A stretch of DNA of 64,000 nucleotides, from positions 2,206,001-2,270,000 of the forward strand of contig NZ_AP021888.1 of the NCBI RefSeq assembly GCF_011398155.1, given 5' to 3'. A program made the translations under genes and the position numbers. Origin of the DNA: Thiosulfativibrio zosterae. GTDB taxonomy: Bacteria > Pseudomonadota > Gammaproteobacteria > Thiomicrospirales > Thiomicrospiraceae. Of this stretch, positions 12,655-52,704 are shown piece by piece. Position 1 is the stretch's first letter. Each line of letters starts with the position of its first letter. The notes below the pieces were generated by a model. It searched no databases and was not told where the DNA came from. It saw only the letters and a list, made by a program, of their open reading frames with translations.

Positions 12655-14829
12655 ATGGCAGGCTCACTGAACAAGCGACAATTTATCAAACAGTATGGCT
12701 GGCTCTTAGCCTTGTCGAGTATTCTGCTGATGTTGTTGGTGGTGATGAGCCATATTCTACAAAATGCCTCTGAATTTGCCGAGTTTTATACCTGGTTATT
12801 GTTGCTGTCTTTTGTTGGGGTCGCCACCTTAACGGGCTTTTTAATCAAAACCCTCTACCAGCTGTATCTGCAACAAAAAGAAAATGTTCCGGGTATTAAA
12901 CTCACCATCAAACTGACCAGTATTTTGTCTTTGGTGGTGGGTATTCCAATTGCCATTATCTATTATTTTGCGGTCAGTTTTATTCATCAAGGCATCGACC
13001 AGTGGTTTGATGTTAAAACCGAACAAGCCTTGCGCAGTGCGGTTGAACTGGTTAAATCGACTCAGGACGATCAAGTCCGAAACCACCTAAACAATGTTTT
13101 TAGCCAAGCGATTTCTTTAACGCCGGCACTCATTTCAGATCCCATCTCAGCGATAGATAAACTACGCAGTCAACTCAATGCCCAAGAGGCCTCGCTTTAC
13201 AGCAAAAATGGTCAGCTGGTTGCCTACAGCACCTTGTTTTCAGTTAATATTTTACCCTCGCAACCGTCTAAATCTTTATTCCAACAATTACGCCAACAGC
13301 GCACCTATGCCGCTTTAGAAGTGTCGCCTGGCGTAGAAAAAGCGCATCAAGTGATTCGAATTCTGGTCCCCATTAATGACAATCAAATGCAGGTGGAATA
13401 TACCTTACAGGTGATTTTTCCCATCCAAGACAATATCACACGCTTGGCTAATGAAGTGCGCATTGCGTCTGGGCAATATCAAGAACTGTCCTATCTAAAA
13501 GGCCCGTTAAAAACCAGTTTCATTCTCATCTTATCCATGGTGTTATTGCTCACTTTGGTGACCGCCGTGTTGTTTACCATTCAAACCATTCAAAACATGG
13601 CGCATCCCATTCGCGTTTTGGCCAAAGGAACCCAAGCCGTTATGGATGGCGACTATACCGTGGCCATGCCCATTGAAACCCAAGATGAATTTGGGCAACT
13701 GATTCAATCTTTCAATAAAATGACGCAGCAGATTGCCAAAGCGCGAAATGACATTAAATTTGGGCATCAACAAACAGAAGTCCAAAAACTCTATCTGCAA
13801 ACCATCATTAAAACCCTCAAAAGTGGCGTACTCACCTTTAATGCCAACCGTCACTTTAAAACCGCTAATGATGCGGCCAATGATATACTCAATGTCAATT
13901 TTCATAAACACCTAGGGAAACCCTTGCAAGAGGTTTTACTGCTGCCAGAGTTCGAGCACCTCCATCCTGTTTATGAGCAAATTTTTGAATTTTTTAAACA
14001 ACAACCCAACTGGAATCATCAACTCACTTTTGACTGTATTCAGGGGCAAAAAATTCTATTGATACACGGCTCAACCCTACCCAGCCTAGACCAAGATGCC
14101 GGCGGTTATGTTGTGGTGATAGAAGACATCACCCAAATCGTGCAGGCGCAATTGCATGCTGCTTGGAGTGATGTGGCGCAACGCTTGGCACATGAAATCA
14201 AAAATCCGTTGACGCCCATTCAATTATCCGCCGAACGCCTTAATTACAAATTGAGCAGCAAGCTCGAAGGCGATGACAAAGACTTACTCAGTCGCATGAC
14301 CCACACCATTACAGAACAGGTGGATGCCATGAAAAATTTGGTGCAAGCCTTTACCGAATATGCCGACACCCCAGAAATTAACCTGCGTAAAATGAACATT
14401 AACACCCTCATTGAAGACATTGTTGGCATGTACCGTGACCCGCAAGCCAACTGGTATATTACCTGCGAATTGGATGAAACTTTTCCAACCATCCAAGCGG
14501 ATTCTGCAAAATTACGCCAACTGTTACACAATTTAGTGAAAAACGCACTTGAAGCCTGTGAAAATCAAACCGACACTCTAATTACCATCAGCACCCTTAA
14601 CCAACCCAAAGAACACCAGCTATTGCTGAGCATTTGCGATAATGGACCGGGCATTCCGGCGGAAGCCAAAAACTGGATTTTTGAACCCTATGCCACTAAT
14701 AAACCCAAAGGGACTGGCTTAGGTCTTGCCATCGTCAAGAAAATTGTCGATGAACATCAAGGCACCATTCGTGTAGAAACTGCACCGACTGGCGGCACTT
14801 GTTTTATAATCACGCTCAAAACCCCTTAA
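12655..14829 (+). CDS. ntrY: NtrY-type sensor histidine kinase
   Basis: A 724-residue membrane kinase. Three membrane helices lie near the N-terminus (about residues 15-115), followed by a periplasmic region and a fourth helix (FILILSMVLLLTLVTAVLFT, about 285-305). A HAMP domain (HPIRVLAKGTQAVMDGDY), a PAS domain (about 370-485), and the kinase core follow. Phosphate acceptor His513 is in AHEIKNPLTPIQLSAERL, the N-box is NLVKNALEACE, and the ATP lid is GTGLGLAIVKKIVDEHQG. NtrY usually senses nitrogen or redox state and signals to NtrX, encoded 25 bases downstream. Confidence 0.92.
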   Translation: MAGSLNKRQFIKQYGWLLALSSILLMLLVVMSHILQNASEFAEFYTWLLLLSFVGVATLTGFLIKTLYQLYLQQKENVPGIKLTIKLTSILSLVVGIPIAIIYYFAVSFIHQGIDQWFDVKTEQALRSAVELVKSTQDDQVRNHLNNVFSQAISLTPALISDPISAIDKLRSQLNAQEASLYSKNGQLVAYSTLFSVNILPSQPSKSLFQQLRQQRTYAALEVSPGVEKAHQVIRILVPINDNQMQVEYTLQVIFPIQDNITRLANEVRIASGQYQELSYLKGPLKTSFILILSMVLLLTLVTAVLFTIQTIQNMAHPIRVLAKGTQAVMDGDYTVAMPIETQDEFGQLIQSFNKMTQQIAKARNDIKFGHQQTEVQKLYLQTIIKTLKSGVLTFNANRHFKTANDAANDILNVNFHKHLGKPLQEVLLLPEFEHLHPVYEQIFEFFKQQPNWNHQLTFDCIQGQKILLIHGSTLPSLDQDAGGYVVVIEDITQIVQAQLHAAWSDVAQRLAHEIKNPLTPIQLSAERLNYKLSSKLEGDDKDLLSRMTHTITEQVDAMKNLVQAFTEYADTPEINLRKMNINTLIEDIVGMYRDPQANWYITCELDETFPTIQADSAKLRQLLHNLVKNALEACENQTDTLITISTLNQPKEHQLLLSICDNGPGIPAEAKNWIFEPYATNKPKGTGLGLAIVKKIVDEHQGTIRVETAPTGGTCFIITLKTP

Positions 14830-37233: not shown

Positions 37234-38307
37234 TTATCCATACATCATTTTTGCCACACCACTGCCTTTTTGATATTTGACTTGTTGATGCGCCTGGTGT
37301 CTTTGGAGCGATTTGATGTCCCCTATGGCTGCGCCAAAACTTTTGAGTAGTTTTCCTTGGCAGATGACATTGATGATTTCTGGTGTGAGTTTGTATTTCT
37401 GCATGAGAGGGTTAGGTTTTTGCGTACTGGATAGAAAGCCTTTTTTGTAGGGATGTAGAGCTTGTCCTAGGTAGTTCACAAATTCTATATAGTCTGGTTT
37501 GGCAAAGGGAATTTGTTGGTTGTTTAAAGCGTTAGCGTCAAAAGCCATCAAACTGGCTCTAGGAATTTGGTCTAGGCGCTGCAGAAAGGCGTTTTCGAGT
37601 TTTTGCTGTTGATTAATGACTTCACAAGGTTTTTCTTGTGTAACCAGTGCCGGTTCTGGAAAGTCTTCGGTGTTTTTAATTCTGCGTTGTATTGTTGTAA
37701 AGTCTGAATCTTCTAAGGATAGTGCAATATTGGCTCTGACAGGATTCAGGTCAACATAGGCCATGACCGACAAAAGGGCTTTTTCGTCTAACAAAGCTTG
37801 GCTTTTAAAACGCCCTTCCCAAAAATGTCCGGTGACTTGGTCTTCCTTATTTGCCATTCTGGCAATTGATTCGTTGAGCACTCGCATAAACCATGAGATG
37901 TCATAAAGTCGTTTGCGATAAATATCAGCCATATCATTAACTTGCTTAACAATCGCCTCATCAGCAGTTTCGGGGGATTGCAAATATTGTTGTACAGTTA
38001 TATTGCTGGCAAACAGTTGTGTCCAGGCTTGTAGAACTTCTAAATTCGACCAGGCCTGGGCTTTTTCTTGATTTACTCTAGCCACTAAATGATAGTGATT
38101 GTTCATAATGGCATAGGCCGCTATGTCTATAGCAAAAACATTGGCTAATTGCATAATGCGTTGTTCTATCCAAGCTCTGCGATGTTCGTAATTTTGACCT
38201 GATATCGAGTCAACTCCGCATAAGTAGGCTCTGCGAACACAGCGATTGACTAGGTGATACCAAGGCGTTTGACTTAGGTCGATTTGCGATTCACGGGCTT
38301 TAGTCAT
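37234..38307 (-). CDS. REP-associated tyrosine transposase (IS200-like Y1 family)
   Basis: A 357-residue protein with the Y1/HUH transposase fold: WYHLVNRCVRRAYLCG at the start, IAAYAIMNNHYHLVARV (HYH metal site) near residue 70, HFWEGRFKSQALLDEKALLS, and MAYVDLNPVRANIA. Such RAYT proteins nick and move REP palindromes. The 3' third is not part of the core domain. Its own upstream region holds four GTGGGTGTCC motifs and a 63-bp direct repeat, likely substrate sites. A copy of the CCAGGCCTGG palindrome is inside the gene. It appears intact. Confidence 0.88.
   Translation of the reverse strand: MTKARESQIDLSQTPWYHLVNRCVRRAYLCGVDSISGQNYEHRRAWIEQRIMQLANVFAIDIAAYAIMNNHYHLVARVNQEKAQAWSNLEVLQAWTQLFASNITVQQYLQSPETADEAIVKQVNDMADIYRKRLYDISWFMRVLNESIARMANKEDQVTGHFWEGRFKSQALLDEKALLSVMAYVDLNPVRANIALSLEDSDFTTIQRRIKNTEDFPEPALVTQEKPCEVINQQQKLENAFLQRLDQIPRASLMAFDANALNNQQIPFAKPDYIEFVNYLGQALHPYKKGFLSSTQKPNPLMQKYKLTPEIINVICQGKLLKSFGAAIGDIKSLQRHQAHQQVKYQKGSGVAKMMYG
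38050..38059. repeat. Dispersed palindrome CCAGGCCTGG inside the RAYT gene
   Basis: A 10-bp perfect palindrome; minus-strand reading gives AQAWSNLE, close to the EFNQAWSN of the methyltransferase copy. Confidence 0.8.
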
Positions 38308-38620: not shown

Positions 38621-41141
38621 TTAAACTATATCACCAAATGCCATATCAGTAACACCTGTCATTTGAATAACAGAAGTATATCCAATGCCATCAGCGTCAT
38701 AAACAAGGTAACCATCAGAACCAACAACACCAAAGTAGTATTTTACTGTACCATTCAGCGCAGTATCTGCAGCAGTTAACAATGCGTCAAGACTTGCAGC
38801 AGCAGTCAATTGCTCAGTATAGTTTCCAACTAATCCTGCAGTTGTAAAGTCTAAAGTATCACTAGTAGTTACGAAATCAGTGATAATGTCAGTAACAGCA
38901 CCAGCAGAAGTATCAATATCAGTATCAACATCACTAAATACAAATACGTCAGCACCAGCAGCGCCTGTCATTGTATCAACACCAGTTCCACCTGTTACAG
39001 TATCAACACCAGCACCACCAGTAAAGGTATCATTACCAGCTCCAAGCACATATGTACCAGCAGTAGCAGCAGCTTTGACAACGTCAGCACCTGCACCAGT
39101 AGTTACAGAGATAGCACCAGTTGATGTTCCAGTTACAGCAGACAAGTCAATTGTTTTTGCAGCAGTTGAAGCCAATGCAGATACACCACCAGAAATTGTA
39201 ATTGTATCTGTCTGTGTATTATTTGCAGCCGTCATTGTAACAACATCCGCACCCTGTGAAAGAGTAATTGTTGTAGCTGTAGCATTTGCAGCAGTATCAA
39301 CGTTTGTAAGTGTTAACTTCATTGAGTTTGTGCCAGTAAGACCAGTTCCATCAATAGTTACAGCACCAGTAAGAGCTGAGGCAGTTACATCGAGAACACC
39401 ACTATTTGCTGTTGCTAATGCATTAGCAAAACCACCGACGGAAAATGTTAATGCAGTAGCAGAACCAATTACAACTTTTTCGATTGCAGTAACATTTGTA
39501 AAGCTGTTATCAGCCAAAGTCAATGTTGCTGCATCTGTAAGAGTCATAGTGTCTGTACCTTCACCACCATTGATAGTTGCTACAGCCATAACTGCTTGAG
39601 TAGCAGAAATGGCATCGTCACCTGCACCAGCATTAACTGTTTGCAATCCACCCGCACCAGCAGCATTCATAGTAACGATATCACGTGTTCCTGTACCAGT
39701 TACAACCACGGTACCAGTTTGTCCACCGATAACGATATCAGCACCAGCTGTATTAGCAGAGGCGTCAACAGTTGTAACTTTTGTTGCATTGGCAGAAAGA
39801 TTTATTTTTGCAGCATTTGCACCAGCAAGTGTTACTTTTGTAAGATCAGTTGTAGCCGTACCAAGAGCCAAGCTTGTGTAATCTGTACCTGCAGTCAATG
39901 CAGTCGTACCTGCAGCATTGTATAGTGAAGTTCCACCACTGCTTACAGTGAAGTTAGCTGTTTCAAAACCTGTAATGTTAAGACCAGTTGCATCTAATTC
40001 AGTTGCTGCAGTTGCTGATTTAACTGTAAGATTCAATACATCTGATGTACCTGTAGCTGTTGTCAACGCGTACTGAAGAGCACCTGTTTGATCAGCAGTC
40101 ATTGTTACCGCAGCAGCTTGGGCAGCACTCATACCTGTAAAGCCAGCACCATCACCTGCAGTAATCAACGATGTAACACCAGAAATACCATCAGCAGCGA
40201 TTGCAGCAGTTGTTGCATTTGATAGTACTTCAAAACCAGTGTATGAACCACGCAATGCAGAAGAAGCAACGTCAGCAGTAGCAGCAACTACTAGTGTATC
40301 AGCTGTACCAGCACCAGCATCAATAATACCAGCAGCAGGAGCAGCAAGAGTTGCTGTAGTTACTGTATCATTTCCAGTAGAACCTTTAAATGAAGTCGTC
40401 ACTGTATCAAGTGTCATTGTAAGACCACCTGTGTTAGTAGAAGCATCAACAGTTTTGAATGTACCAGCATTACCAACGTTAACCGCACCAGCACCTGTTA
40501 CTGTTAAAGCAGCAGTTGCAGCATAGTCAGCTGCCAAAGTTGCTGTAAATGCAGTAGTAGCGTTTACTGTCAATGAAGTAATGTTAGCACCAGTTACGTT
40601 CAAGTCAACAGTACCAAGAGTATTTGCAACACCAGTAGAATTGATAGTTGCAGTTGTAGCATTACCTGCAGAAGCATTAGTAACGTTAGTACCAGCTTTC
40701 GTGCCACCAGAAACATTAAGAGTTACTGCATCAGTAGCTGTTGCATAACCAAAAGTAACTGTACCATTAGCAGTAGTACCATTACCGATAACACCGATAG
40801 ATGCACCCGTTGCAAGATTAGTTACGGTAACTGCACCAGCACCAGTGTTAGCATTAACTGCAGTTGCACCAACAGCACCAGAAGCATCAACTGTTGCAGT
40901 AACACCAGCAGCTGCAGCACGAACATTGATTGTCTCAATTCCAGTAATTACTGCAGCATTAAGAGCTGTTGCATCAGTAGCAGTAACAACTAAATTTAAT
41001 GTATCAGTACCTGCTCCACCATTAATAATGTCTGCAGCATTTAAAGTTTCATCCGTTCCACCGTTAGAAGCGATAGCTGTAAATGTATCATTAGCAGATG
41101 AACCCGTGAATGCAGTACCTTGGTCAACACCTGTAGTAAGC
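38621..41141 (-). pseudogene. RTX-like S-layer protein gene lacking its 5' end (silent copy or remnant)
   Basis: The frame is open from 41,182 to the stop at 38,621, but no ATG, GTG or TTG is in frame before 40,603. From 41,141 on, the translation aligns with the middle of the intact S-layer protein (both contain NGGAG-DTLN/DGGAG-DTLN, ATGAS, FGYAT, DAVTLNV, ATINSTG), so the DUF4214-like N-terminal part and start are missing. The C-terminal part carries hemolysin-type nonapeptides (GGAGVDTVTGGTGVDTMTGAAGAD) and ends VTDMAFGDIV, quite unlike the other copy. It has no cysteine. Translation from TTG 40,603 would give 660 residues, but this looks like a promoterless cassette. The homology stops exactly where element DNA begins. 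Confidence 0.75.
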
Positions 41142-41152
41142 GACCAAATAAT

Positions 41153-41208
41153 AGATACTGTAAGTATCTGATTTTTAAAGAACTAACTTGTAGATACTAT
41201 TAGTATCT
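41153..41208. promoter_or_regulatory. Two GATACT-N3-AGTATC operators left of the XRE gene
   Basis: AGATACTGTAAGTATCT (41,153-41,169) and AGATACTATTAGTATCT (41,192-41,208), 39 bases apart centre to centre. They match the two operators on the other side of the XRE gene and are probably bound by the same repressor. This pair sits between the XRE stop and the broken S-layer frame. Confidence 0.8.
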
Positions 41209-41298
41209 GGTAATTTCTTGTTTTTTTCTACAAAATTAAATCGTTTCAATTACGGAAAACAAATATTATACTTATATTTCAACAACTTAGTTAAAATA

Positions 41299-41769
41299 CT
41301 ATTCTTTTACTTTTCTGTCACTTCGTCTTTTAGAAGTTTTAAGCATTGATAGATATGATTTTATAAAGACACTTGGGCTGATTGACAATTGATATTCAGA
41401 ACCTGATATGGAAATGGTCAAACCCTCTGAGTTCAGATAACCAATAATCCGCTCTGTCATCTCTGAATTAGGCTTTGTTTCAAATGTCTCTAACCGAGCT
41501 ATCGTTGGCTTACTGAGTCCTACGTTTTTAGCAAATTCCTGCTGAGACTGATTTAGCAAATTTCTACAAGATTTTGTCATCAAACCAAAAGACACTTCTT
41601 CAGCAAATCTTTTACTGGCATCTGAATCTGGGAAACTACCATACTGGCTAATACCGTTTAAAAAACGCTCAACATCCTGCTCCAGAGCCTCATCTGAAGG
41701 AATTTCCTGACTTCTTAAATGCTCTACAAAATCAAAAAACTCTTGATAACCATCATAAATGCTTGACAT
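41299..41769 (-). CDS. XRE-family repressor of the integrative element
   Basis: A 156-residue protein. An acidic helical N-terminus (about 1-60) is followed by a Cro/C1-type helix-turn-helix: NQSQQEFAKNVGLSKPTIARLETF (about residues 75-100), and a short C-terminal extension ending in basic residues. It diverges from the integrase, and the 107-base gap between them holds two operators, so autoregulation and control of int are likely. It resembles phage/ICE repressors but has no known close name. Confidence 0.82.
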   Translation of the reverse strand: MSSIYDGYQEFFDFVEHLRSQEIPSDEALEQDVERFLNGISQYGSFPDSDASKRFAEEVSFGLMTKSCRNLLNQSQQEFAKNVGLSKPTIARLETFETKPNSEMTERIIGYLNSEGLTISISGSEYQLSISPSVFIKSYLSMLKTSKRRSDRKVKE

Positions 41770-41785
41770 TCAAAATCCAATATTA

Positions 41786-41816
41786 GATACTATGAGTATC
41801 AGATACTTTCAGTATC
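41786..41816. promoter_or_regulatory. Two GATACT-N3-AGTATC operators between XRE and integrase
   Basis: GATACTATGAGTATC (41,786-41,800) and GATACTTTCAGTATC (41,802-41,816), 16 bases apart centre to centre. Same dyad as the left pair. They lie in the divergent promoter region of the repressor and int. Confidence 0.85.
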
Positions 41817-41876
41817 CGAAAAACGCAGTGCAAATGCATAATCAATAATTCAACCAATAATTTAAAGGAACACAAC

Positions 41877-43079
41877 ATGCCTAAACAACTACTTAGTCAG
41901 GCTTTCGTGGATAAAGCCAAATGTCCTAAAGGACAAACTAAAGTCGATTACTTCGATACAAAAGTTAACGGCTTATTGCTCAAAGTATTAACTTCAGGAA
42001 AAACAAATTACTACCTAAGATACCAAAACTCATATGGTAGATGGACAGAAAATAGACTCTCACAAGTTGACGCATCTGCTCTCAACCTCAACGATGCCAG
42101 ACAACTTGCTAAACAATATCTGTCTCAAATCACACTTGGTCACAACCCTTTTGAAGACAAGGTTAAAAAGACCAGCGTCATCACATTCCAAGAGCTGATT
42201 GATAACTACTACCTTCCCCACATTAAGGGATACAAAAGAAGTTGGGATACCGATGTCAGCTTATTAAAGAACCATATTCTACCAGCTCTTAAGGATAAGC
42301 ATTTAGATGAAATTAAACGCAATGACATGGTTTCTATTTTTACCAAACATCGCAGCACTCACAAGCCCGGCTCTACGAATCGAATCATTATTCTTTGTCG
42401 TTACATCTTCAACTGCGCCATAAAGTGGGAAATTGAAGGTGCTGGACAAAACCCAACTTCAGGCATCGACTTGTATCAAGAAAATAACAAATTAGAACGA
42501 TACTTGTCTAGTGATGAAGCTAAACGGTTATTTGAAGAACTCGATAAGTCTCAGGCGAAAATGTTAAAGCCGATTATCACCATGCTTCTGCTGACTGGTG
42601 CACGTAAAAATGAGGTGCTACAAGCTAAATGGGAAGACTTCGATTTTGAACGCAGATTGTGGCGCATCGAGAAGAATAAGACGGGTACAACTCGTCATGT
42701 TCCACTTAATGATGGTGCAATTCAACTACTTCAATCCATGACAAAGCATGATAGTTCTGAGTATGCCTTCCCTAACCCAGATACTGGAAAACCTTATACA
42801 CAAATCTTCCATGCATGGAATACGGTTAGGAAGCGAGCTGGTTTAGATGAACTACGAATCCATGACCTGCGGCATTCATTTGCCAGCTTTCTAGTCAACA
42901 GTGGACGATCACTGTATGAAGTGCAAAAGATACTCGGTCACACTCAAATCAAGACAACACAAAGGTATGCACATTTAGCAAACGATACATTAGTAGATGC
43001 TTCGAATGCAGCGTTCAAGGCATTACCCTTGATTCAACTTCAGAAACTACCAGAGGTGCCAATGGTCACAATGCAATGA
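41877..43079 (+). CDS. int: Tyrosine recombinase/integrase
   Basis: A 400-residue site-specific recombinase. It has an N-terminal Arm DNA-binding domain (DUF4102-like, residues 1-80: TKVDYFDTKVNGLLLKVL), a SAM-like core-binding domain (about 100-190), and the catalytic domain with Arg243 (TGARKNEVL), His329 and Arg332 (HDLRHSFASFL), His355 (ILGHTQIKTTQ) and Tyr364 (QRYAHLAND). All six catalytic positions look intact. It probably moved this element; the attachment core was not identified. AAAGGAACAC before the ATG is its ribosome site. Confidence 0.93.
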   Translation: MPKQLLSQAFVDKAKCPKGQTKVDYFDTKVNGLLLKVLTSGKTNYYLRYQNSYGRWTENRLSQVDASALNLNDARQLAKQYLSQITLGHNPFEDKVKKTSVITFQELIDNYYLPHIKGYKRSWDTDVSLLKNHILPALKDKHLDEIKRNDMVSIFTKHRSTHKPGSTNRIIILCRYIFNCAIKWEIEGAGQNPTSGIDLYQENNKLERYLSSDEAKRLFEELDKSQAKMLKPIITMLLLTGARKNEVLQAKWEDFDFERRLWRIEKNKTGTTRHVPLNDGAIQLLQSMTKHDSSEYAFPNPDTGKPYTQIFHAWNTVRKRAGLDELRIHDLRHSFASFLVNSGRSLYEVQKILGHTQIKTTQRYAHLANDTLVDASNAAFKALPLIQLQKLPEVPMVTMQ

Positions 43080-43133
43080 CAAATATTAATAGCAAAAAGT
43101 GCCTATAAAAGTTCCCGCTCTTATAGACACTTG

Positions 43134-43219
43134 AACCTTCCAGAGTTAAACGGTAGATTCAATTTAACAATAAACATTTTACCGCACTCTAAAACGAAAG
43201 AATAGCTCTCTGGAAGGTT
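43134..43219. repeat. 12-bp inverted repeat AACCTTCCAGAG / CTCTGGAAGGTT
   Basis: Perfect arms at 43,134-43,145 and 43,208-43,219, separated by 62 bases, in the 172-base gap between int and the split gene. A smaller dyad AGTGCCTATAA/TTATAGACACT (about 43,099-43,132) is just before it. It could be a terminator for int, a protein site, or a large RNA hairpin before the next gene. Confidence 0.7.
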
Positions 43220-43251: not shown

Positions 43252-43918
43252 ATGACAAACGTTAAATACGGCTTAAATGAGCGACTTTTAAAGGTACTCA
43301 GAGTACTAAAGTCAGACAAGACCACATCACAAACATCTTACACTGAACTGGCTAGACTCGCTCAACTGAGCCGACAAACAATTAATAAACATCAAACAGC
43401 CATACAACACTACCTAAGTGATGCACCACCACCATCAAACCTTGATTTGATGTATGTCAGAAGGCGGCAAAAAGAAACCTATGTTGAATATGCTACAGCT
43501 CATCTTAAACTCGGTGATGAACTATTCCCTGCAATATTGGGGGCGATTGCTGGCTACCAACTTAGACATGAGGTCAAGTTGATTTCACATTTAAACAAGA
43601 TTGATGCAATCATTGAACTAGGAAAAGCCTTTGTCCAAGTTGCCAACCAAGTACAGATTAAGAAAGATAACTCTGGGATAGTCATAAACAGCCAAAACAA
43701 AGCCGTTAAACATTTACTGAACTCCGGAACTAAAGTGGCTTTTGTGGACAAACTATTTAGTCGCAGCAAAAGTTACAGCTCTGCTAGATACTCAAAGAAG
43801 TGGAAACTCACTAAACTGGGACAAGAAACTATTCAAGAGATAGTTAAGTTAGCACTCCATGAAATTAGAAGAATAAATGCAGACCTATGTTCTCAACTTA
43901 CAGTTAGTCCGCTACATA
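43252..43918 (+). pseudogene. 5' half of element gene split by IS256 (HTH N-terminal region)
   Basis: Residues 1-222 of a gene that continues at 45,244. The N-terminus has a helix-turn-helix-like segment (SYTELARLAQLSRQTINKHQ, about 28-48). The rest is basic and mixed alpha/beta and I do not recognise it. The track to 43,932 ends in IS-derived codons (RACK). Removing the insertion and one copy of the 8-bp target duplication joins codon 222 (His) in frame to the Met at 45,243-45,245, giving one 521-residue protein. The original gene was therefore interrupted recently, without other damage. Confidence 0.85.
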
Positions 43919-43946
43919 GAGCCTGTAAATAATTCTGTGTAAACGC
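43919..43946 (+). repeat. Left terminal inverted repeat of the IS256 element
   Basis: 28 bases beginning GAGCCTGTAAAT; the 43,911-43,918 target duplication GCTACATA directly precedes it. Confidence 0.9.
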
Positions 43947-43954
43947 CCATTTGG

Positions 43955-45172
43955 TTACACCCGCCCTTTAAGGCGGTCTTCATGCAAAATCATAAACTGA
44001 TTCATCGCAGCATTCCAGTCACGAATCGGCATTGTCCATTTTTTTGATGCCGATTCAATCGCCAAAAATACAATTTTAAATGCCGAATTATCATGCCCAA
44101 AAATCTTGCGATTATTCACCGCTTTGCGAATCACAGAGTTTAGTGACTCTATGGCATTAGTGGTGTAGATCGCTTTGCGTATCGATTCTGGATATAAAAA
44201 CAAGGTTGAGACATTATCCCAGTGAGTTCGCCAGGATTTGCTGATACTGGGAAATTTTGCATCCCATTTTTGTTCAAATCGCTCCAATGCCATTAAAGCA
44301 CCTGCTTCAGTGACGGATTGGTAAATGTCTTTTAAATCAGTGGCAACCAGTTTGCGTTCTTTATAGCCGACATACTTGAGTGAGTTACGCACCATATGGA
44401 CAATACAAAGCTGTATATCTGTTTTAGGGTAGACAGCATTAATCGCTTCAGGAAATCCTGTTAGGCCATCAACCGATGCGATGAGAATGTCTTTCACGCC
44501 GCGGGCGTGAAGGTCATTTAAAACATTTAACCAAAACTTGGAAGATTCATTTTCTGATAACCAAAGCCCCAAACATTCTTTTCTACCTTCTAGGTTAATG
44601 CCCAGCGCTACATACATGGTTTTGCGCAACACTTGTTTGTCTTGGCGGATTTTGAGCACTATGCCGTCAAGGTAGATAATCGGGTAGATTTCATCGAGGG
44701 GTCGTTCTTGCCATTGGGTAACTTTCTCGAGTACAGATTCGGTGACTTTAGAAATGAGGGTGGGTGAAACATCAGCACCGTACATTTCTTTAAAGGCATC
44801 AACGATGTCTCGGGTACTCATACCTTTAGCGTAAAGGCTAAGAATCTGGTCATCCATATGGGTGAGTCGTGTAGCGCCTTTTTTAACGATGACGGGTTCA
44901 AAGGTACTGTTACGGTCTCTAGGGACGGACAGTTCAACTTCACCATGATCACCTTTAAGGATTTTGCTGGTGTAGCCGTTACGGCTGTTAGTTGAATCGG
45001 AAACTTGGTTTTTTGAGTAGCCTAAATGTTCTTCCATCTCAGCGCCAAGGGCTGCTTCAACAGTCATCTTAACCAGCATGGATGAAAGGTTGGATAGGTC
45101 TTCTTGTGTTTTAACAGACTTGGCAAGTTCTTTGGCCAATTCTTGGAGTTTTTTGTGGTCTAAGTTGCTCAT
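43955..45172 (-). CDS. IS256-family transposase
   Basis: A 405-residue DDE transposase (Transposase_mut). The catalytic Asp is in YLDGIVLKIRQDKQV, the second in ASVDGLTGFPEAINAVYP, and the Glu is in AIESLNSVIRKAVNNRKIF. The signature region DIQLCIVHMVRNSLKYV is kept. The frame is intact and within both inverted repeats, so it is probably functional. Confidence 0.95.
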   Translation of the reverse strand: MSNLDHKKLQELAKELAKSVKTQEDLSNLSSMLVKMTVEAALGAEMEEHLGYSKNQVSDSTNSRNGYTSKILKGDHGEVELSVPRDRNSTFEPVIVKKGATRLTHMDDQILSLYAKGMSTRDIVDAFKEMYGADVSPTLISKVTESVLEKVTQWQERPLDEIYPIIYLDGIVLKIRQDKQVLRKTMYVALGINLEGRKECLGLWLSENESSKFWLNVLNDLHARGVKDILIASVDGLTGFPEAINAVYPKTDIQLCIVHMVRNSLKYVGYKERKLVATDLKDIYQSVTEAGALMALERFEQKWDAKFPSISKSWRTHWDNVSTLFLYPESIRKAIYTTNAIESLNSVIRKAVNNRKIFGHDNSAFKIVFLAIESASKKWTMPIRDWNAAMNQFMILHEDRLKGRV

Positions 45173-45207
45173 AGCTTTTTTCCTTTTTTGAGGATTTTAA
45201 TCTATGA

Positions 45208-45235
45208 GCGTTTACACAGTTTGATTTACAGGCTC
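45208..45235 (-). repeat. Right terminal inverted repeat of the IS256 element
   Basis: 28 bases ending ATTTACAGGCTC, followed directly by the second GCTACATA copy (45,236-45,243). Confidence 0.9.
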
Positions 45236-45243
45236 GCTACATA

Positions 45244-46142
45244 TGCACCCCACCATATGTAGTCGAGCAAGCGTAAACCTAAAAGAACAGTTTAAATCTT
45301 TATTCAGCGTTTCCAGTTCTAATATTACATCACCTTACCAGACCAGTGTTTCCATTGATATGCTAGATGAGTTGAGCATTCCTTCTCTATTTGCTTTACT
45401 GAGCCATGCCAGCCCTTCTTATATTGATGCTGGTCAGCTTTTAGTTTCAACTCGGCATCTTGCTTCTACAGATGAATCCGATGGTCGAAGTTATAACGTC
45501 TTCACGAGACTCAGTAGTTCGGAACGCAAGCTTTTAGGATATTACAACTATGATATTAGCAGCTGTTTGCAGATTGTTAGCTTTGGCTTGCTTTACCGTT
45601 ACAGCTCTAACCCTGAATTATTTAGTGATTATTGTCTGGTGTTCAATTATGCATGGGATACCGACTTCAAGCGTAGTTTTAGACAGCAGATTTCTAATGA
45701 CATCGTTATTGATGAATCTGATGTGAAGAAGGAACTCACTGCATTTGCTAATGGTAAGCGTAACAGTCACCTTGAACATCCAATGCTTGAAATGTTCCAG
45801 CAACAATCCGATAGATTACGTAGAGAAGTATTGGCATTAATCTTCACCTATGAACCTGATGTCTTTGCAATAGCATTGAGTCAATCGCGCAAAGACCTAC
45901 CTGACAATGTGAACTGGATAGATATCGAAGCACCAGAAGAACCTGCTCTTGCTTATGCCAAGTCCAGTGTCTTTTTCTTTGTCTGGACGTATTACGAGAA
46001 GCAAATCAGAGATGCAATGTTAAGCTTAGTTGATGATGGCATACCCCTGCATGATGCTATTTATAGCAGGCGGATAGTTTCACCAGACACCTTTGAGAAA
46101 GCCATTTTTGATCAGACAGGTTTTGAGGTCAAGATTGCTTAA
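45244..46142 (+). pseudogene. 3' half of split element gene; possible palm-domain polymerase
   Basis: The 299 residues after the insertion. By eye three segments fit the order and spacing of family A/T7-type palm motifs: GYYNYDISSCLQIVSFGLLY (motif A, D-x-S), DRLRREVLALIFTYEPDVF (O-helix-like, compare T7 KRSVMTLAYG), and GIPLHDAIYSRR (motif C, HD), with about 30 residues to the end. No exonuclease domain is present. The motif B Tyr-Gly is replaced by Phe-Thr in that alignment. I infer a divergent nucleotidyl polymerase joined to an N-terminal HTH, but it could be an unrelated protein. Intact copies elsewhere would decide. Confidence 0.6.
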
Positions 46143-46158
46143 CACCTCAGGGGGGGGT

Positions 46159-46174
46159 TGCTCTTTAACAATTT
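46159..46174 (+). promoter_or_regulatory. rRNA-type boxA antitermination site
   Basis: TGCTCTTTAACAATTT is the boxA of rRNA leaders and spacers, the NusB-NusE binding site. It is 17 bases after the stop of the split gene, just after a run of eight G. No rRNA gene follows. It would let transcription read through the following 330 bases of hairpin-rich DNA. Confidence 0.65.
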
Positions 46175-46375
46175 GGATAGTTGGTAAGTAATGTGAGAAT
46201 AACAAATTTTTGAACTTTATCGCTAATGGATTAAATGTATGTTTGTGTACGTTCTTCAAAACTTAATTCATAAAGTTATCTGTATGTTTTGGCATGAAAA
46301 TCATGAAGTACTTTCAACAAGCGCAGTCTGTTGAATGTGCTGAATGATTCGACAACCGAAGGGCGTCAGCTTGTA

Positions 46376-46489
46376 GTTTTCAGTAAATAGACTCTATTAT
46401 TTTTCCAAAGTCCATTTACAGAAAACCCCTCGCTCCAGGAGGATTGAGGGGCTAACTGCATCCCTAACCGAAGCTAGGGATTGGTTTTT
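46376..46489 (+). ncRNA. Run of three hairpins, candidate structured RNA or element end
   Basis: Hairpin 1: GTTTTCAGTAAATAGACT (46,376-46,393) with AGTCCATTTACAGAAAAC (46,409-46,426), 16 of 18 pairing. Hairpin 2: CCCCTC (46,426-46,431) with GAGGGG (46,446-46,451), which on the minus strand is followed by TTTTC and probably terminates the S-layer gene. Hairpin 3: ATCCCTA (46,460-46,466) with TAGGGAT (46,475-46,481), then TGGTTTTT, a plus-strand terminator. No coding frame is seen between 46,143 and 46,533. Confidence 0.5.
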
Positions 46490-46533
46490 GCTTTACACCT
46501 TTTGCCGAAGCTTGAAGTGTATCTCCAAGGAGA

Positions 46534-49500
46534 TTATGCCAAATCAATTAAACCAGCAGTAGTTGCATTAGTTGCAGAGATTGAAGTAGCTACAACACCA
46601 ACCAATTCAACAACAGTATCGTTTGTTCCCTGCTGGAAAACGATAGTTGCATCAGTAGTACCGTCACTATTACTGTCATAAGCAAATGCAACTGTATCGC
46701 CAGCTGTAGTGATATTTGTTGCTAAATAAGTCAAGACAGTTGATAAATTAGATTCATTTACTGTAAGTGCAGTTGCAAAAGTATCAACATCATCAAAAGT
46801 GATAATACCACTTGTTATAGCATGAGATTTAATTGAACCGCTATCCGTACCATTTGTACCAGCCGTGTTAGCTGTAACAGTAGGAGTGCCATTTAAATCC
46901 AATGTATCAGCAAATTTAGCAGCAGTACCTAAATCAAAACCAGTAATTTTATCACGTGATGCAGCCAATGAATCTCCATCAGCGATTACAAAAGTGAAAT
47001 TACCTAAACCTGAACCCGCATTATCATGAACAGCAGTAATTGTATCTGCACCAGTACCAGCGTTAATCGTAACTGCATTTGTACCTGTAACAGCTAGTAA
47101 TGTTCCAGTAGTAACTGAAATCGTATCATTACCACCACCCGTTACAACATTAATTGCACCAGCCGCACCAGCCGCACCAACCCATGAAGTTGCCGTCAAA
47201 GTAACTGTGTCAGCCCCTGAGCCTGTTGTAATTGATGAATTATCAGCAGTTGATGCACCATCACCAGCAGTAGTTGCAACTATTGTTGCAGCACCAGTAA
47301 ATGAAGATAAATCGATAGTTTGGGTTGCACCGTTTGCAGTTGTACCAGTTGTCAAAGTCACACCAGAAGCTTTGAAGTTGTTATCAAAGAAACCACCAGA
47401 TGTTACAGATAACGATGTAATGTTAGTCAAAGTTACTTTCTCTACACCTGTAACGTACTGAAACTGAGCGTCAGCAAATGTAGCATCAGCTGTATCAAAT
47501 GATAATGTATCAGTGCCTTCACCACCCTCAATTTTTAAAGAGGCTAACGCATTGTTTGTGTTATTAATCGCCGTCAAGCTTGTTGAAATTGCATCATCTC
47601 CAGCACCTGCATTGTAGCTGACAAACTCACCTTGAACACCAGCAATGGCTGCAAGAGCAGTTTCGATTGTGTCACCGTTTGCAGTTGTTGTTACAGAAGA
47701 ACCTTTAATCAATTCACCTTCAACTTTCATAGCTGCTGTACCTGAAAGTGTATTTGCTACAGTTACAGCCTTGGATGTGTTATCAAGGATGACATTTGCC
47801 GCAAATGCACCAGCAATATTTAAAGAAGTTAAATCAGTTGCCGCTGCAAAACTAACTACTGTCGCTTCAGCATTTGTCTCATCAACATTACCAGAAGAAA
47901 CAGTTACATTCATAGTTTCAAAACCATTTACAGTTAAAGCTGCTAAATCAGCTGCTGTTGTAGCAGTTGCATGTTTAGTTTCAATACTTAGAACATCAGA
48001 AGTACCTGTTGCTGTTGTTAAAGCATAAGTTGTACCACCAGCTTGAACAGCCGTGTTTGTAATTGCTGCTGCTTGTGTAGCATTCATTGCAGTAAAACCA
48101 CCCTGAATACCACTTGAAATCAATGAAGTTACTCCTGTAAAACCATCTGCAGCAATCGCACCCGTAGTAGCATTATTTAATGTTTCAAAGCTTGTAAAAA
48201 CAGCTCTTTCAGCTGAAGTATCCACATCGTTTGCGTGAGCTACGACTAAAGTATCAGTTCCTTCACCACCATTAACAACACCAGCAGCCGTTCCAGCTAA
48301 TCCAGCATTGCTTGTTGTTGTAACAACATCATTTCCTGCGCCGAAAGTGGCAGTTTTCACGCCAGCAGCCAATGTAATGGTATCTACACCAGCACCACCT
48401 TTATAATCTTCAGTACCAGTTCCTAAGGTTGCTTTAACACCACCCGCTGTTAAACCAGATGCATCAATTGTCTTAATCGTATTGTCCAAAGCCGCAGTCA
48501 ATTCAACCGTGGTTGCCGCACCTGAAATTGTAACTGCACCGTCAGTACCTACTTGGTCTGTAGCCTGAGACAATAAATCAGCCTTAAGATTTGTTGTTGC
48601 ATTAATTGTTACTGATGTTAATGTTGCGTTTGCAATATCAACTGTACCCAGGATATTTGCAGCACCAGTAGAATTAATTGTTGCTGTTGTTGCAGTCCCT
48701 GTATTAGACACTGTGGTTCCTACTTTAGTTCCACCTGCTACATTTAGAGTCACTGCATCAGTACCAGTTGCATAACCAAATGTAATAGCACCGTTTGTTA
48801 CTGTACCATTACCAGTTACTGTCATTGATGCACCAGTAGCTAGGTTAGTTACTGTTACAGCACCAGCACCAGCATTTGCATTAACACCAGTTAATCCAGC
48901 AATTGAAGAAGCATCTAATGTAGACGTCGTACCAGCTGTTGCTGCACGGATATTAACAACTTCAATATTAGTTATTTGGGCACCATCAGTTACGTCAGTA
49001 TTAGCAGCCGTTGTTGTGATGTTTAATGTGTCTATACCTGCACCACCATCAATAATATCAGCGGCAGTTAAAGTGTCAGTAGCAGCAGCAGCAGTTGCTT
49101 GAGACAAACCTGAGAATGTATCGTTGTTTGCTGTACCAGTTATGTTGTCCGCACCTGTAGTAAGCGTGAAAGTCTGACCAGAAGCAGCACCAGCAGTTGT
49201 AGAAATTACAGCTGCCATTGCAGCGGCAGTTGAAACATCAGTTGTTGAAGTTACACCAGAAACAACAGAAGCTAAAACACCTAAATCAGTACCAGTAGCT
49301 GCTTGAGTTACTGTGTAGTATTCTGCAACAGCTGCTTTGTTGGCTAAAGTTGCTTTTGCAGTTGCGAAAGCTGTGTCAGTTGTTGTGTCAAGAAACTGTT
49401 GAGCTGCTGCAAATAAAGAACCTGCAGAAGCACCAGCATTTAGATTAGCCAAGAAGTAGTCATAAGCTGCTTGACCCGCTGGAGTTGTTGTATCACTTAA

Positions 49501-49734
49501 TGCAAACGCAGCTGCCATTTTAGTAGCAACTTCTGCATTTGTTAAGTATGAAGGATAGAAAGAAGCTGACTGATAAGCAGCCGTGTTAGTTAAAGCGGTT
49601 GTGAACGCTGTTAAGTTACCACCAACGGCTTCATAAATTGAAGTCAATGCGGTCATGTATCCCGCTGGTGCGATTCCGAAAACTGATACCGTTGCTTTAA
49701 TGATATCTAGTCTTTGTGCTGCTGTAATTGCCAT
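46534..49734 (-). CDS. S-layer/RTX-like surface protein
   Basis: A 1,066-residue protein, very rich in Ala, Thr, Gly and Val and apparently without cysteine. The N-terminal 210 residues (MAITAAQRLDIIKATVSVFG...) form a helical region resembling the LPS-anchoring domain of RsaA-type S-layer proteins. The rest is beta-rich with calcium-binding RTX-like motifs (GGAGIDTLNI, GGEGTDTLVV, GAGADTVT-type repeats). It has no signal peptide, so the type I system at 30,335-34,888 should export it by a C-terminal signal (end: TTAGLIDLA). It has an AGGAG site and an upstream cAMP-receptor site. Its middle is homologous to the truncated copy at 38,621, while C-termini differ. Confidence 0.85.
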   Translation of the reverse strand: MAITAAQRLDIIKATVSVFGIAPAGYMTALTSIYEAVGGNLTAFTTALTNTAAYQSASFYPSYLTNAEVATKMAAAFALSDTTTPAGQAAYDYFLANLNAGASAGSLFAAAQQFLDTTTDTAFATAKATLANKAAVAEYYTVTQAATGTDLGVLASVVSGVTSTTDVSTAAAMAAVISTTAGAASGQTFTLTTGADNITGTANNDTFSGLSQATAAAATDTLTAADIIDGGAGIDTLNITTTAANTDVTDGAQITNIEVVNIRAATAGTTSTLDASSIAGLTGVNANAGAGAVTVTNLATGASMTVTGNGTVTNGAITFGYATGTDAVTLNVAGGTKVGTTVSNTGTATTATINSTGAANILGTVDIANATLTSVTINATTNLKADLLSQATDQVGTDGAVTISGAATTVELTAALDNTIKTIDASGLTAGGVKATLGTGTEDYKGGAGVDTITLAAGVKTATFGAGNDVVTTTSNAGLAGTAAGVVNGGEGTDTLVVAHANDVDTSAERAVFTSFETLNNATTGAIAADGFTGVTSLISSGIQGGFTAMNATQAAAITNTAVQAGGTTYALTTATGTSDVLSIETKHATATTAADLAALTVNGFETMNVTVSSGNVDETNAEATVVSFAAATDLTSLNIAGAFAANVILDNTSKAVTVANTLSGTAAMKVEGELIKGSSVTTTANGDTIETALAAIAGVQGEFVSYNAGAGDDAISTSLTAINNTNNALASLKIEGGEGTDTLSFDTADATFADAQFQYVTGVEKVTLTNITSLSVTSGGFFDNNFKASGVTLTTGTTANGATQTIDLSSFTGAATIVATTAGDGASTADNSSITTGSGADTVTLTATSWVGAAGAAGAINVVTGGGNDTISVTTGTLLAVTGTNAVTINAGTGADTITAVHDNAGSGLGNFTFVIADGDSLAASRDKITGFDLGTAAKFADTLDLNGTPTVTANTAGTNGTDSGSIKSHAITSGIITFDDVDTFATALTVNESNLSTVLTYLATNITTAGDTVAFAYDSNSDGTTDATIVFQQGTNDTVVELVGVVATSISATNATTAGLIDLA

Positions 49735-51065: not shown

Positions 51066-52514
51066 TTAAGGCACAACAGAATTGGACTGCCAAAGCGTTT
51101 GCACCTTAAGCAATCCATCTTGAGACTGCTGATTTAAAATATACCCTACAGCCTGACCATCATTAGAAATAGCACCATTAACAGTGACACCCATCTGATT
51201 TTTTAATGCAAAAATACCATCGTCTCGAGCCATAGTGGATTCTATTGACTGACTGTTAAAAGCTCCGCCGGGCATCAGCATATCTAAGCGCGTTTGAAAA
51301 AGCCTACTGTCAAAGTTTATTTTTAAAGCACCCCCTAACACACCAACAACTTTTGCATCACCCTGTGTATACAAAAAGCCCTCAGCAGCCTTTAAACCAT
51401 AATTAACAACGCCAGGCATGGGCAAATACTCACCCTGATTACGCCACAATACCGTTTGGTTATCACCAACCGTAACAGAACGCCCTTCTCTTGCTGAGTC
51501 TATTGGCACATTTAACCCTTTAGCATCATTTGTCCAATAACTAAAGACCAATGGAATATCTTGCGAAACCGAAACAGGAACAGAGCTCACTGATGAGCTT
51601 TCTTTAAAATACTGCAAGGATTTTGTTAAAAACTTTTCAACCAACAAGGGCGAGTCTGCCAAAATGGTCGCCACATCTGTAACAGCAACATCCGTAACAG
51701 GTGAAGCTGCAGATGATGACTGCGAACTTTGCTCCAAATCCTGACCAGCTAAAGCTTGTAATTGCTTTAATGACTTTTGAGCGACCACATCTGGCAAGTT
51801 ATCCAAAGGAACCTTAAGCGGCAAGACACCAGGAGTGACTCTTAAGGCATAGGGATCAAGTGCGCTCAACACAGACGACAAAGAGGTAGTGCATACACCC
51901 AAACCATTTGCGGTGCAATCACCTCCGAAAGGTGAAGCCACAACAGCACCCTCTAAAACACGCACCAAGCTTTCTTGCAGTGTTGAGGAAACCACAAAGT
52001 CTGTACCTTTAACACCTATCGCGGCTACTGGCGTATTGAGTCTAAAAGTTTCTGGCGCCAATTTGGCTGCATCACCATCCACAACCCTTACTTCACCTTG
52101 CTTTAAAGTAAGTTTCATACAACCTTTTGACTGTTGTTGCACTTGATAACAGACTATTTCAAGCTGGCTTTGTGGTCGCAAAGAAATTCGAGCATTATCT
52201 TTCATCTTTAAGTGCACAAAAGTACCTTGCTGAGTTTGAAGCGAATCACCTTCTAGAATATCTGCTTTCATTTTTAGAGGCAGAGCTTGGTTATTACGAA
52301 TCAAAACGGCATCTTTACCCGTCATTAACATGACTTGCCCAATGACTTGCATATTTGAAGAATTTACTGAACCCTCCAGAGCCAATGATTGCGCGGAAAT
52401 CATCAACAAACCACTGACCAACACCATGGATTTTGCAACTTTTTGATTCAAATAAGATTTTAACCATCCAAGCCAGGAAAGTTTACAAAGCTGTAAAGAC
52501 CTAAAACTTAACAT
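51066..52514 (-). CDS. FecR-domain exported protein
   Basis: A 482-residue protein from ATG 52514, which has GGGGAG 6 bases upstream. An N-terminal hydrophobic segment (SMVLVSGLLMISAQSLA) is likely a signal peptide or anchor. A FecR domain follows: DAVLIRNNQALPLKMKADIL, GDSLQTQQGTFVHLKMKDNA, ISLRPQSQLEIVCY and LNTPVAAIGVKGTDFVV. The rest is Ser/Val-rich and may sit in the periplasm. FecR domains usually pair with CHASE2-adenylate cyclases in gamma- and betaproteobacteria; one is encoded 935 bases away. Confidence 0.85.
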   Translation of the reverse strand: MLSFRSLQLCKLSWLGWLKSYLNQKVAKSMVLVSGLLMISAQSLALEGSVNSSNMQVIGQVMLMTGKDAVLIRNNQALPLKMKADILEGDSLQTQQGTFVHLKMKDNARISLRPQSQLEIVCYQVQQQSKGCMKLTLKQGEVRVVDGDAAKLAPETFRLNTPVAAIGVKGTDFVVSSTLQESLVRVLEGAVVASPFGGDCTANGLGVCTTSLSSVLSALDPYALRVTPGVLPLKVPLDNLPDVVAQKSLKQLQALAGQDLEQSSQSSSAASPVTDVAVTDVATILADSPLLVEKFLTKSLQYFKESSSVSSVPVSVSQDIPLVFSYWTNDAKGLNVPIDSAREGRSVTVGDNQTVLWRNQGEYLPMPGVVNYGLKAAEGFLYTQGDAKVVGVLGGALKINFDSRLFQTRLDMLMPGGAFNSQSIESTMARDDGIFALKNQMGVTVNGAISNDGQAVGYILNQQSQDGLLKVQTLWQSNSVVP

Positions 52515-52704
52515 AAAGCTCCCCTTAATTAATGAAGATTGAAACAAAATCTATGATTGAAAAAAGTTTAAACAGTTACATTCAAGGTAACTATCCGTTT
52601 ATAAATAATAACATTATTGACACTTACATATAGATGAAAACTGAAGTTATCCAGAAAACAAACGCTTTAAAAACCCAGCTTTAGACTGAAATAATAACTT
52701 AACC

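Follow-up and report, generated by a model that had tools for sequence, protein, structure and literature searches.

A gene at 43252–46142 in a stretch of Thiosulfativibrio zosterae DNA is split by an insertion sequence (IS), and the question is what this gene encoded and which part it had in the integrative element that carries it. The whole stretch analysed, called the window here, comprises 64,000 nucleotides (contig NZ_AP021888.1, positions 2,206,001–2,270,000 of the forward strand), and coordinates refer to the window unless another locus is named. The results indicate that a recent IS256-family insertion has broken a gene whose predicted C-terminal domain is, with little doubt, a polymerase domain of the family A type. 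The gene probably encoded the polymerase that replicated a small integrative element, namely a family A primase-polymerase similar to those called TV-Pol.

In the window, an integrase gene (41877–43079) is followed by an open frame of 226 codons (43252–43932), an IS with its transposase on the opposite strand, and a frame of 299 codons (45243–46142). The features of the split gene are as follows.

43252–43918, plus strand: 5' part of the split gene, 222 codons, N-terminal helical domain with a possible helix-turn-helix (HTH); aligns to the N-terminal part of intact homologues
43911–43918, plus strand: left copy of the 8-bp target-site duplication GCTACATA, direct repeat
43919–45235, unstranded: IS256-family insertion sequence, 1317 bp, with terminal inverted repeats and the 8-bp target duplication
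43955–45172, minus strand: IS256-family (Mutator) transposase, 405 aa (Pfam Transposase_mut, E 3.8e-112)
45236–45243, plus strand: right copy of the 8-bp target-site duplication GCTACATA, direct repeat
45236–46142, plus strand: 3' part of the split gene, with the complete family A-type polymerase domain predicted by AlphaFold; ATG at 45243, 299 aa

The terminal inverted repeats of the IS are 32 nt long with a complementarity of 88%. With its Mutator-type transposase, terminal inverted repeats and 8-bp target duplication, it is an ordinary copy of the IS256 family, from which nothing notable differs. When the IS and one GCTACATA copy are removed, a single open frame of 521 codons runs from 43252 to 46142. 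An uninterrupted homologue of 516 aa aligns to both pieces and across the junction, with 52% identity over the C-terminal piece. The 521-codon frame is thus a genuine gene rather than a chance product. The first-pass annotation, made from the sequence by eye, had proposed that IS256 splits a 521-residue gene; the IS ends, the 8-bp repeats, the joined frame and the intact homologue all bear this out. The genome contains three copies of the IS, and the other two are 100% and 96% identical to that in the window. As one copy elsewhere is 100% identical, the insertion is recent. The IS is located in the linker between the N-terminal domain and the polymerase domain, and this linker (residues 213–244) is of low confidence in the model of an intact homologue described below. 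The gene is broken by the IS, and the full-length protein is lost in the T. zosterae copy. The 299-aa piece behind the ATG at 45243 still holds the complete predicted polymerase domain and may be made as a residual separate product.

AlphaFold models were obtained for the intact homologue of the metagenome-assembled genome (MAG) JN10.006 (locus L007) from 10 aligned sequences, and for the 299-aa window piece from 9, which included the C-terminal parts of its relatives. The predicted local distance difference test score (pLDDT) and predicted template modelling score (pTM) are 80 and 0.72 for the homologue, and 77.8 and 0.74 for the window piece modelled alone. In the Foldseek search of the PDB, ranks 1–3 for the L007 model are taken by two entries for Bacillus DNA polymerase I and one for T7 DNA polymerase (E 0.027–0.094), and ranks 1–4 for the window piece are family A polymerases with weaker values (E 0.14–0.63). 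According to VIA-align, the 50 matches listed for the L007 model are family A DNA polymerases except for one mitochondrial T7-type RNA polymerase, with Z up to 10.2 and about 245 aligned residues within the C-terminal 300. All 50 matches listed for the window piece are family A polymerases (Z 8.8–10.1, about 250 of 299 residues). In BFVD, the uncharacterised phage proteins A0A6J5NAK1 and A0A6J5NHK2, which are of similar length, match over most of their length with E 9e-6. The structure prediction suggested by the first-pass annotation therefore yields a family A fold with a palm in both models. The N-terminal 211 residues of the L007 model are mainly helices with a few short strands. The HTH that had been claimed for this part is weakly suggested by the sequence, in which Pfam HTH models reach E about 0.02, below the cut-off, and by the helices present in the model.

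The residues expected for catalysis are assigned as follows; a homologue is counted where it covers the position.

45486–45488, plus strand: Arg of GRxY, which precedes motif A and is a candidate for contact with the template; the same in five aligned sequences
45552–45554, plus strand: putative catalytic Asp of motif A (NYDISS); conserved in every covering homologue, on a predicted strand
45726–45728, plus strand: Lys of the most likely motif B (VKKELTAFANG), fingers helix; VK conserved in every covering homologue, predicted helix
46053–46055, plus strand: putative catalytic Asp of motif C (LHDAIY); HDA conserved in every covering homologue, at the turn of a predicted beta-hairpin

The Asp of NYD[I], the VK pair, the Asp of HDA and the Arg of [G/S]RxY are invariant wherever they are covered. 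The GRxY region (residues 286–295), whose conserved Arg is a candidate for the template-contacting beta-hairpin Arg of TV-Pol, is of low confidence in the L007 model. Motifs A and C had been picked correctly by eye (YDISSCLQ and PLHDAIYS), and the two Asp residues, for which conservation was to be checked, are the same in every covering homologue. In contrast, RREVLALIF, which had been taken as the motif between them, falls in a helix that comes after the fingers, about 90 residues past the motif A Asp; the spacing of VK(x7)NG fits better. The equivalent of motif B and the O-helix is most likely VKKELTAFANG, 58 residues past the motif A Asp. Five members have 63 residues here, against 58 in the window and 48 in the Campylobacterales homologue (L013 below), and 107–111 residues separate the motif B Lys from the motif C Asp. 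The two Asp residues are 159–172 residues apart, compared with 176 in the host's own PolA. By motif spacing, the family appears nearer to DNA polymerase I and T7 DNA polymerase than to T7 RNA polymerase. The initial comparison with family A/T7-type polymerases thus agrees with the predicted fold and the Asp pair.

Homologues were searched for in 94 relatives, 398 genomes of the phylum, 369 of the class and one scan of GTDB species genomes, and further in 247 genomes of the family of the Thalassotalea locus and 200 of the order of the Campylobacterales locus. The polymerase family comprises eight loci in all, the window and the following seven.

L007, MAG JN10.006: intact polymerase homologue
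L008, Thalassotalea loyana: intact polymerase homologue
L009, Opacimonas viscosa: intact polymerase homologue
L010, Glaciecola MAG: polymerase homologue
L011, Glaciecola sp. HTCC2999: polymerase homologue
L012, a MAG: polymerase gene, frame-disrupted
L013, Campylobacterales MAG: polymerase homologue, 32% identical

The hosts of intact homologues are marine Gammaproteobacteria and one Campylobacterales MAG, and the intact proteins are 487–528 aa long. No relatives were found in viral contigs and plasmids. One phage search gave a single chance-level match (E 0.6), and another gave none. Two further loci (L005 and L006) matched near E 0.005; they contain internal stops and are not counted among the eight. 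Among the closest three intact homologues, the nonsynonymous divergence (dN) is about 0.2 and the synonymous divergence (dS) is saturated; therefore, the polymerase gene is under purifying selection. Between L009 and L011 the polymerase domain is more conserved (dN 0.16) than the N-terminal domain (dN 0.30).

The polymerase gene directly follows a tyrosine integrase gene in the window and in L007, L008, L009, L010 and L011, so that intact homologues beside integrase genes, which the first-pass annotation had advised looking for, do exist. In L013 an integrase gene is located upstream with two genes intervening, and in L012 no integrase was found upstream. The window integrase is only 22–24% identical to the integrases of the tRNA-Ser elements of the relatives, and the L013 integrase is about 24–26% identical, over part of its length, to both. 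With between-group identities of 22–26%, three dissimilar integrase groups therefore partner the same polymerase family. In L007–L010 the integrase gene is located just past a tRNA-Ser gene, and in L011 it is preceded by a tRNA-Ser-like 3' part. In L008, a 90-nt stretch of tRNA-Ser is directly repeated with 96% identity (7790–7879 and 13089–13178), and the two copies bound 5.4 kb. A tRNA-Ser remnant downstream of the element in L011, near 13400–13475, gives about 5.4 kb as well. Judged by these sequences, the intact relatives in two genomes appear to be elements that measure about 5.4 kb and are inserted at tRNA-Ser. A sequence of about 160–200 bp at the right end is common to L009, L011 and a further Glaciecola HTCC2999-type locus (L018), and occurs in those two genomes at these loci only. 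The genes after the polymerase gene vary between loci, whereas the integrase–polymerase order stays in the window and five relatives. The downstream genes of L008 have no Pfam helicase or single-stranded DNA-binding protein (SSB) match, and in L011 no open reading frame of at least 50 aa follows the polymerase gene until 11181.

Side observations were made at these loci. Homologous convergent proteins of 242–244 aa, which belong to no Pfam family, are encoded downstream of the polymerase gene on the minus strand at 10827–11561 of L008 and 10942–11670 of L009. In L018 (1318–1623 and 1945–2141), a second, 5'-truncated polymerase-gene piece comprises about the last 40 codons. It is joined in frame with the beginning of a secreted host protein, and behind it lie a fragment resembling an integrase and the right-end sequence of the element.

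The window's own element contains the following features upstream of the split gene.

41154–41168, unstranded: putative operator palindrome GATACTNNNAGTATC no. 1, left edge, beside a truncated RTX-like gene
41193–41207, unstranded: putative operator palindrome GATACTNNNAGTATC no. 2, found by pattern search
41299–41769, minus strand: HTH_3 repressor, 156 aa (Pfam HTH_3, E 4.6e-6), divergent from the integrase, with putative operator pairs on both sides
41786–41800, unstranded: putative operator palindrome GATACTNNNAGTATC no. 3, in the repressor/integrase promoter region
41802–41816, unstranded: putative operator palindrome GATACTNNNAGTATC no. 4, between repressor and integrase
41877–43079, plus strand: tyrosine integrase, 400 aa (Phage_integrase, E 5.5e-36)
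43097–43219, plus strand: two adjacent hairpins with 12–13-bp stems between the integrase and polymerase genes, by RNA folding

The GATACTNNNAGTATC palindrome occurs four times in the 2.65-Mb genome, always at this repressor (two toward the integrase and two at the far end), and the reversed control pattern occurs 0 times. From this distribution, the palindromes are very probably the operators of the 156-aa repressor. An integrase–repressor–polymerase element with its own operator-like sites is thus real, as had been claimed, and intact elements exist elsewhere; the local copy, however, is broken. The hairpin pair has a folding energy of -39.5 kcal/mol (z -4.7), none of 200 shuffles is equally stable, and a search of Rfam gave no match. 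It is a possible terminator/attenuator or replication site. It is not common to the relatives that were read, in which the integrase–polymerase gaps are much shorter (about 30–55 bases). No direct repeats of at least 12 bases were found between 40901–41900 and 46101–46600, and a 13-base match farther right was rejected as a flanking repeat because it looks like shared RTX repeat sequence. On the plus strand, no open reading frame of at least 50 aa is present from the end of the polymerase gene to 46481.

Compared with its paralogue at 46534–49734, to which it is 44% identical from residue 189 on, the RTX/S-layer-like gene left of the element (38621–41150, minus strand) is shortened by roughly the first 188 residues. 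The IMG/VR contig L050 (985–2410) encodes an integrase 49% identical to that of the window, adjoining an HTH gene and an RTX-like gene in the same order, and the 5' part of this RTX-like gene also seems to be cut off. RTX-like genes may be the insertion target of integrases of this type. An IS200-like Y1 transposase-type protein of 357 aa (37234–38307, minus strand; PF01797, E 3.9e-5) and a FecR-domain protein near the RTX-like genes (51066–52547, minus strand; PF04773, E 2.2e-15) are also encoded in the window.

In the proposed mechanism, the protein would have two parts, a helical DNA-binding region with an HTH at the N terminus and a thumb–fingers–palm domain at the C terminus. The repressor would hold the integrase off via the four element-specific operators, and probably also the polymerase gene behind it. 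Upon induction the integrase would excise the element as a circle. The N-terminal part would bring the polymerase to the element, DNA synthesis on it would be started or extended, and the element would re-integrate after copying. In T. zosterae, the IS cut the linker between the two domains, and no full protein would come from this copy. We consider it quite likely that the polymerase is active in the intact relatives, and on balance it would be used to prime or replicate the element.

Several points weigh against this reading. None of the sequence profiles used (Pfam, PHROGs, NCBIfam, PADLOC and PDB sequences) recognises the polymerase family, so the profile search proposed in the first-pass annotation gave no library match. 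Pfam shows no hit for DNA polymerase A (PF00476) or T7 RNA polymerase (PF00940), PF00476 finds polA alone in the genome, and hhalign against PolA and phage RNA polymerase profiles is not significant. The link to polymerases is drawn from the predicted fold and the motifs, in models computed from 10 and 9 sequences, and the Foldseek E-values against the PDB are marginal. The motif B Tyr of DNA polymerase I and T7 RNA polymerase is Asn in the window family, and the O-helix Arg at K-4 is absent; [KR]xxxR is present in the preceding helix, and the Lys is kept in VKxxLTAYANG. Eight loci represent a small host range. Finally, no helicase or SSB was recognised beside the polymerase in the window element or L008, unlike in the CcPol systems.

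Three other explanations were weighed. The altered fingers, with Asn for Tyr and without the Arg, could belong to a catalytically dead family A-derived DNA-binding protein acting as an initiator or excision factor, and some PolA-SSB relatives retain little beyond an RRM, which may be vestigial and inactive (PMC10061031). Against such a protein, every covering homologue keeps both catalytic Asp residues, the motif B Lys and the Arg of GRxY, and the L009/L011 comparison shows the polymerase domain, not the N-terminal domain, as the better conserved part; this explanation is highly improbable. A single-subunit T7-like RNA polymerase, transcribing the genes of the element from its own promoters, would agree with motif A. 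A small residue always precedes [LI]Q (DISSCLQ, DISGGLQ), as it does in DGSCSGIQ of T7 RNA polymerase, and no Glu steric gate is present; sugar specificity is therefore not readable from the sequence. The N-terminal domain could recognise a promoter, and the mitochondrial enzyme among the VIA-align matches listed for L007 is of this type. The spacings of 48–63 (A to B) and 107–111 (B to C) are, however, far below the 94 and 181 of T7 RNA polymerase, for which we take the motif residues to be D537, K631 and D812. All the other VIA-align matches listed are family A DNA polymerases, the motif B Tyr is replaced by Asn, and a 5.4-kb element of three to four genes hardly needs its own transcriptase. 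With no profile support from hhalign in addition, the T7 RNA polymerase-type assignment was rejected, and we regard this explanation as quite unlikely.

The protein might also be cargo, or a defence or regulatory protein with a family A-derived fold and no part in the replication of the element. Polymerase-like cargo genes are frequent on mobile elements, an integrated element is inherited without its own polymerase, and neither a helicase nor an origin was found. This explanation is unlikely, as the window and five relatives all have the polymerase gene immediately behind the integrase gene, with varying genes after it. The PADLOC defence search gave nothing convincing (one REase_II match, E 0.023), and TV-Pol elements are described with this same gene neighbourhood (PMC2579912). 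A replication polymerase of the element is the explanation that we favour. It is doubtful that the integrase and one family A-type primase-polymerase, without helicase or SSB, suffice to excise, copy and re-integrate a tRNA-Ser element of roughly 5 kb. If they did, it would be a very small self-synthesising element and a family A counterpart of the pipolins, with three dissimilar integrase groups as partners. The window's own copy, a recent IS casualty, is of lesser importance here. The intact homologues come from marine bacteria that include named strains (Thalassotalea, Glaciecola, Opacimonas), and with them it could be tested whether such a polymerase alone primes and replicates an integrative element. 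The tRNA-Ser elements of the relatives are small and carry no recognised helicase or SSB.

Among known systems, the pipolins share a self-encoded polymerase, a tyrosine recombinase and att direct repeats at a tRNA gene. They differ in their primer-independent family B polymerase (piPolB) and varied cargo, whereas the window family matches the family A fold and its elements in L008 and L011 measure about 5.4 kb (PMC7385651). The PICMI satellites are likewise marine integrative islands of about 6 kb with an integrase, a regulator and a replication enzyme. They carry a DUF3987/DUF5906 primase and AlpA and are integrated beside fis, and no family A polymerase is listed for them (PMC10803314). CcPol-MP/PolA-SSB systems of SCCmec and Bacillota elements also combine a family A polymerase, with the catalytic Asp pair, and a site-specific recombinase on an integrative element (PMC7581432, PMC10061031). 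In contrast to the window family, those occur with OB-fold SSB and helicase genes, and mostly with a large serine recombinase in Bacillota instead of a tyrosine recombinase in Gammaproteobacteria and Campylobacterales. By itself CcPol can extend primers, and together with MP it makes primers de novo via its family A active site (PMC7581432, PMC10061031). It was placed in TV-Pol by Iyer and is the best-studied TV-Pol relative; the authors of a 2020 paper state that they knew of no other biochemically characterised TV-Pol (PMC7581432).

The TV-Pol proteins are family A relatives of 400–600 aa in transposons and viruses, for which a primase-polymerase role was proposed on the basis of sequence (Iyer, Abhiman and Aravind 2008, PMC2579912). 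They have a minimal family A palm with two Asp and no nuclease domain, and a subset has an N-terminal all-helical domain. Their gene neighbourhoods include lambda-type integrases, resolvases or transposases in mobile elements, and one TV-Pol occurs in Microcystis phage LMM01 (PMC2579912). The LMM01 gene MAP_030 (L051, 22746–24266), beside transposase genes, is a candidate for this protein. MAP_030 is annotated as hypothetical and has the family A-type motifs NYDVV, VKTAVLAVING and QHDG. It has in common with the window family R.Y...NYD[V], VK(x7)NG and HD. Of 373 open reading frames of at least 200 aa in the sequences analysed, only those of the window family and the LMM01-type genes contain this composite motif. 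When MAP_030 was shuffled 200,000 times, the motif did not occur once; the pattern had been written with both families already in view. The hhalign comparison of the window family with MAP_030 is not significant (E 0.23). Searches with MAP_030 gave one chance hit in proteobacterial genomes, and only close Microcystis phage copies in viral contigs.

The window family differs from TV-Pol in that no D5 helicase is found alongside, and the canonical RxxxK of the TV-Pol fingers HTH is not found at its motif B Lys; MAP_030 also is without Arg at K-4. The likeness lies in a stand-alone protein of 487–528 aa with a mostly helical N-terminal part and no nuclease domain, and in the integrase neighbourhood in mobile elements, seen in the window and L007–L011. 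The pairing of integrase and polymerase, which had been called unusual, is less so, as it is already described for TV-Pol elements (Iyer 2008, PMC2579912). By architecture, neighbours and sequence motifs, TV-Pol is the closest description of the window family, which appears as a member of an already described, thinly studied kind.

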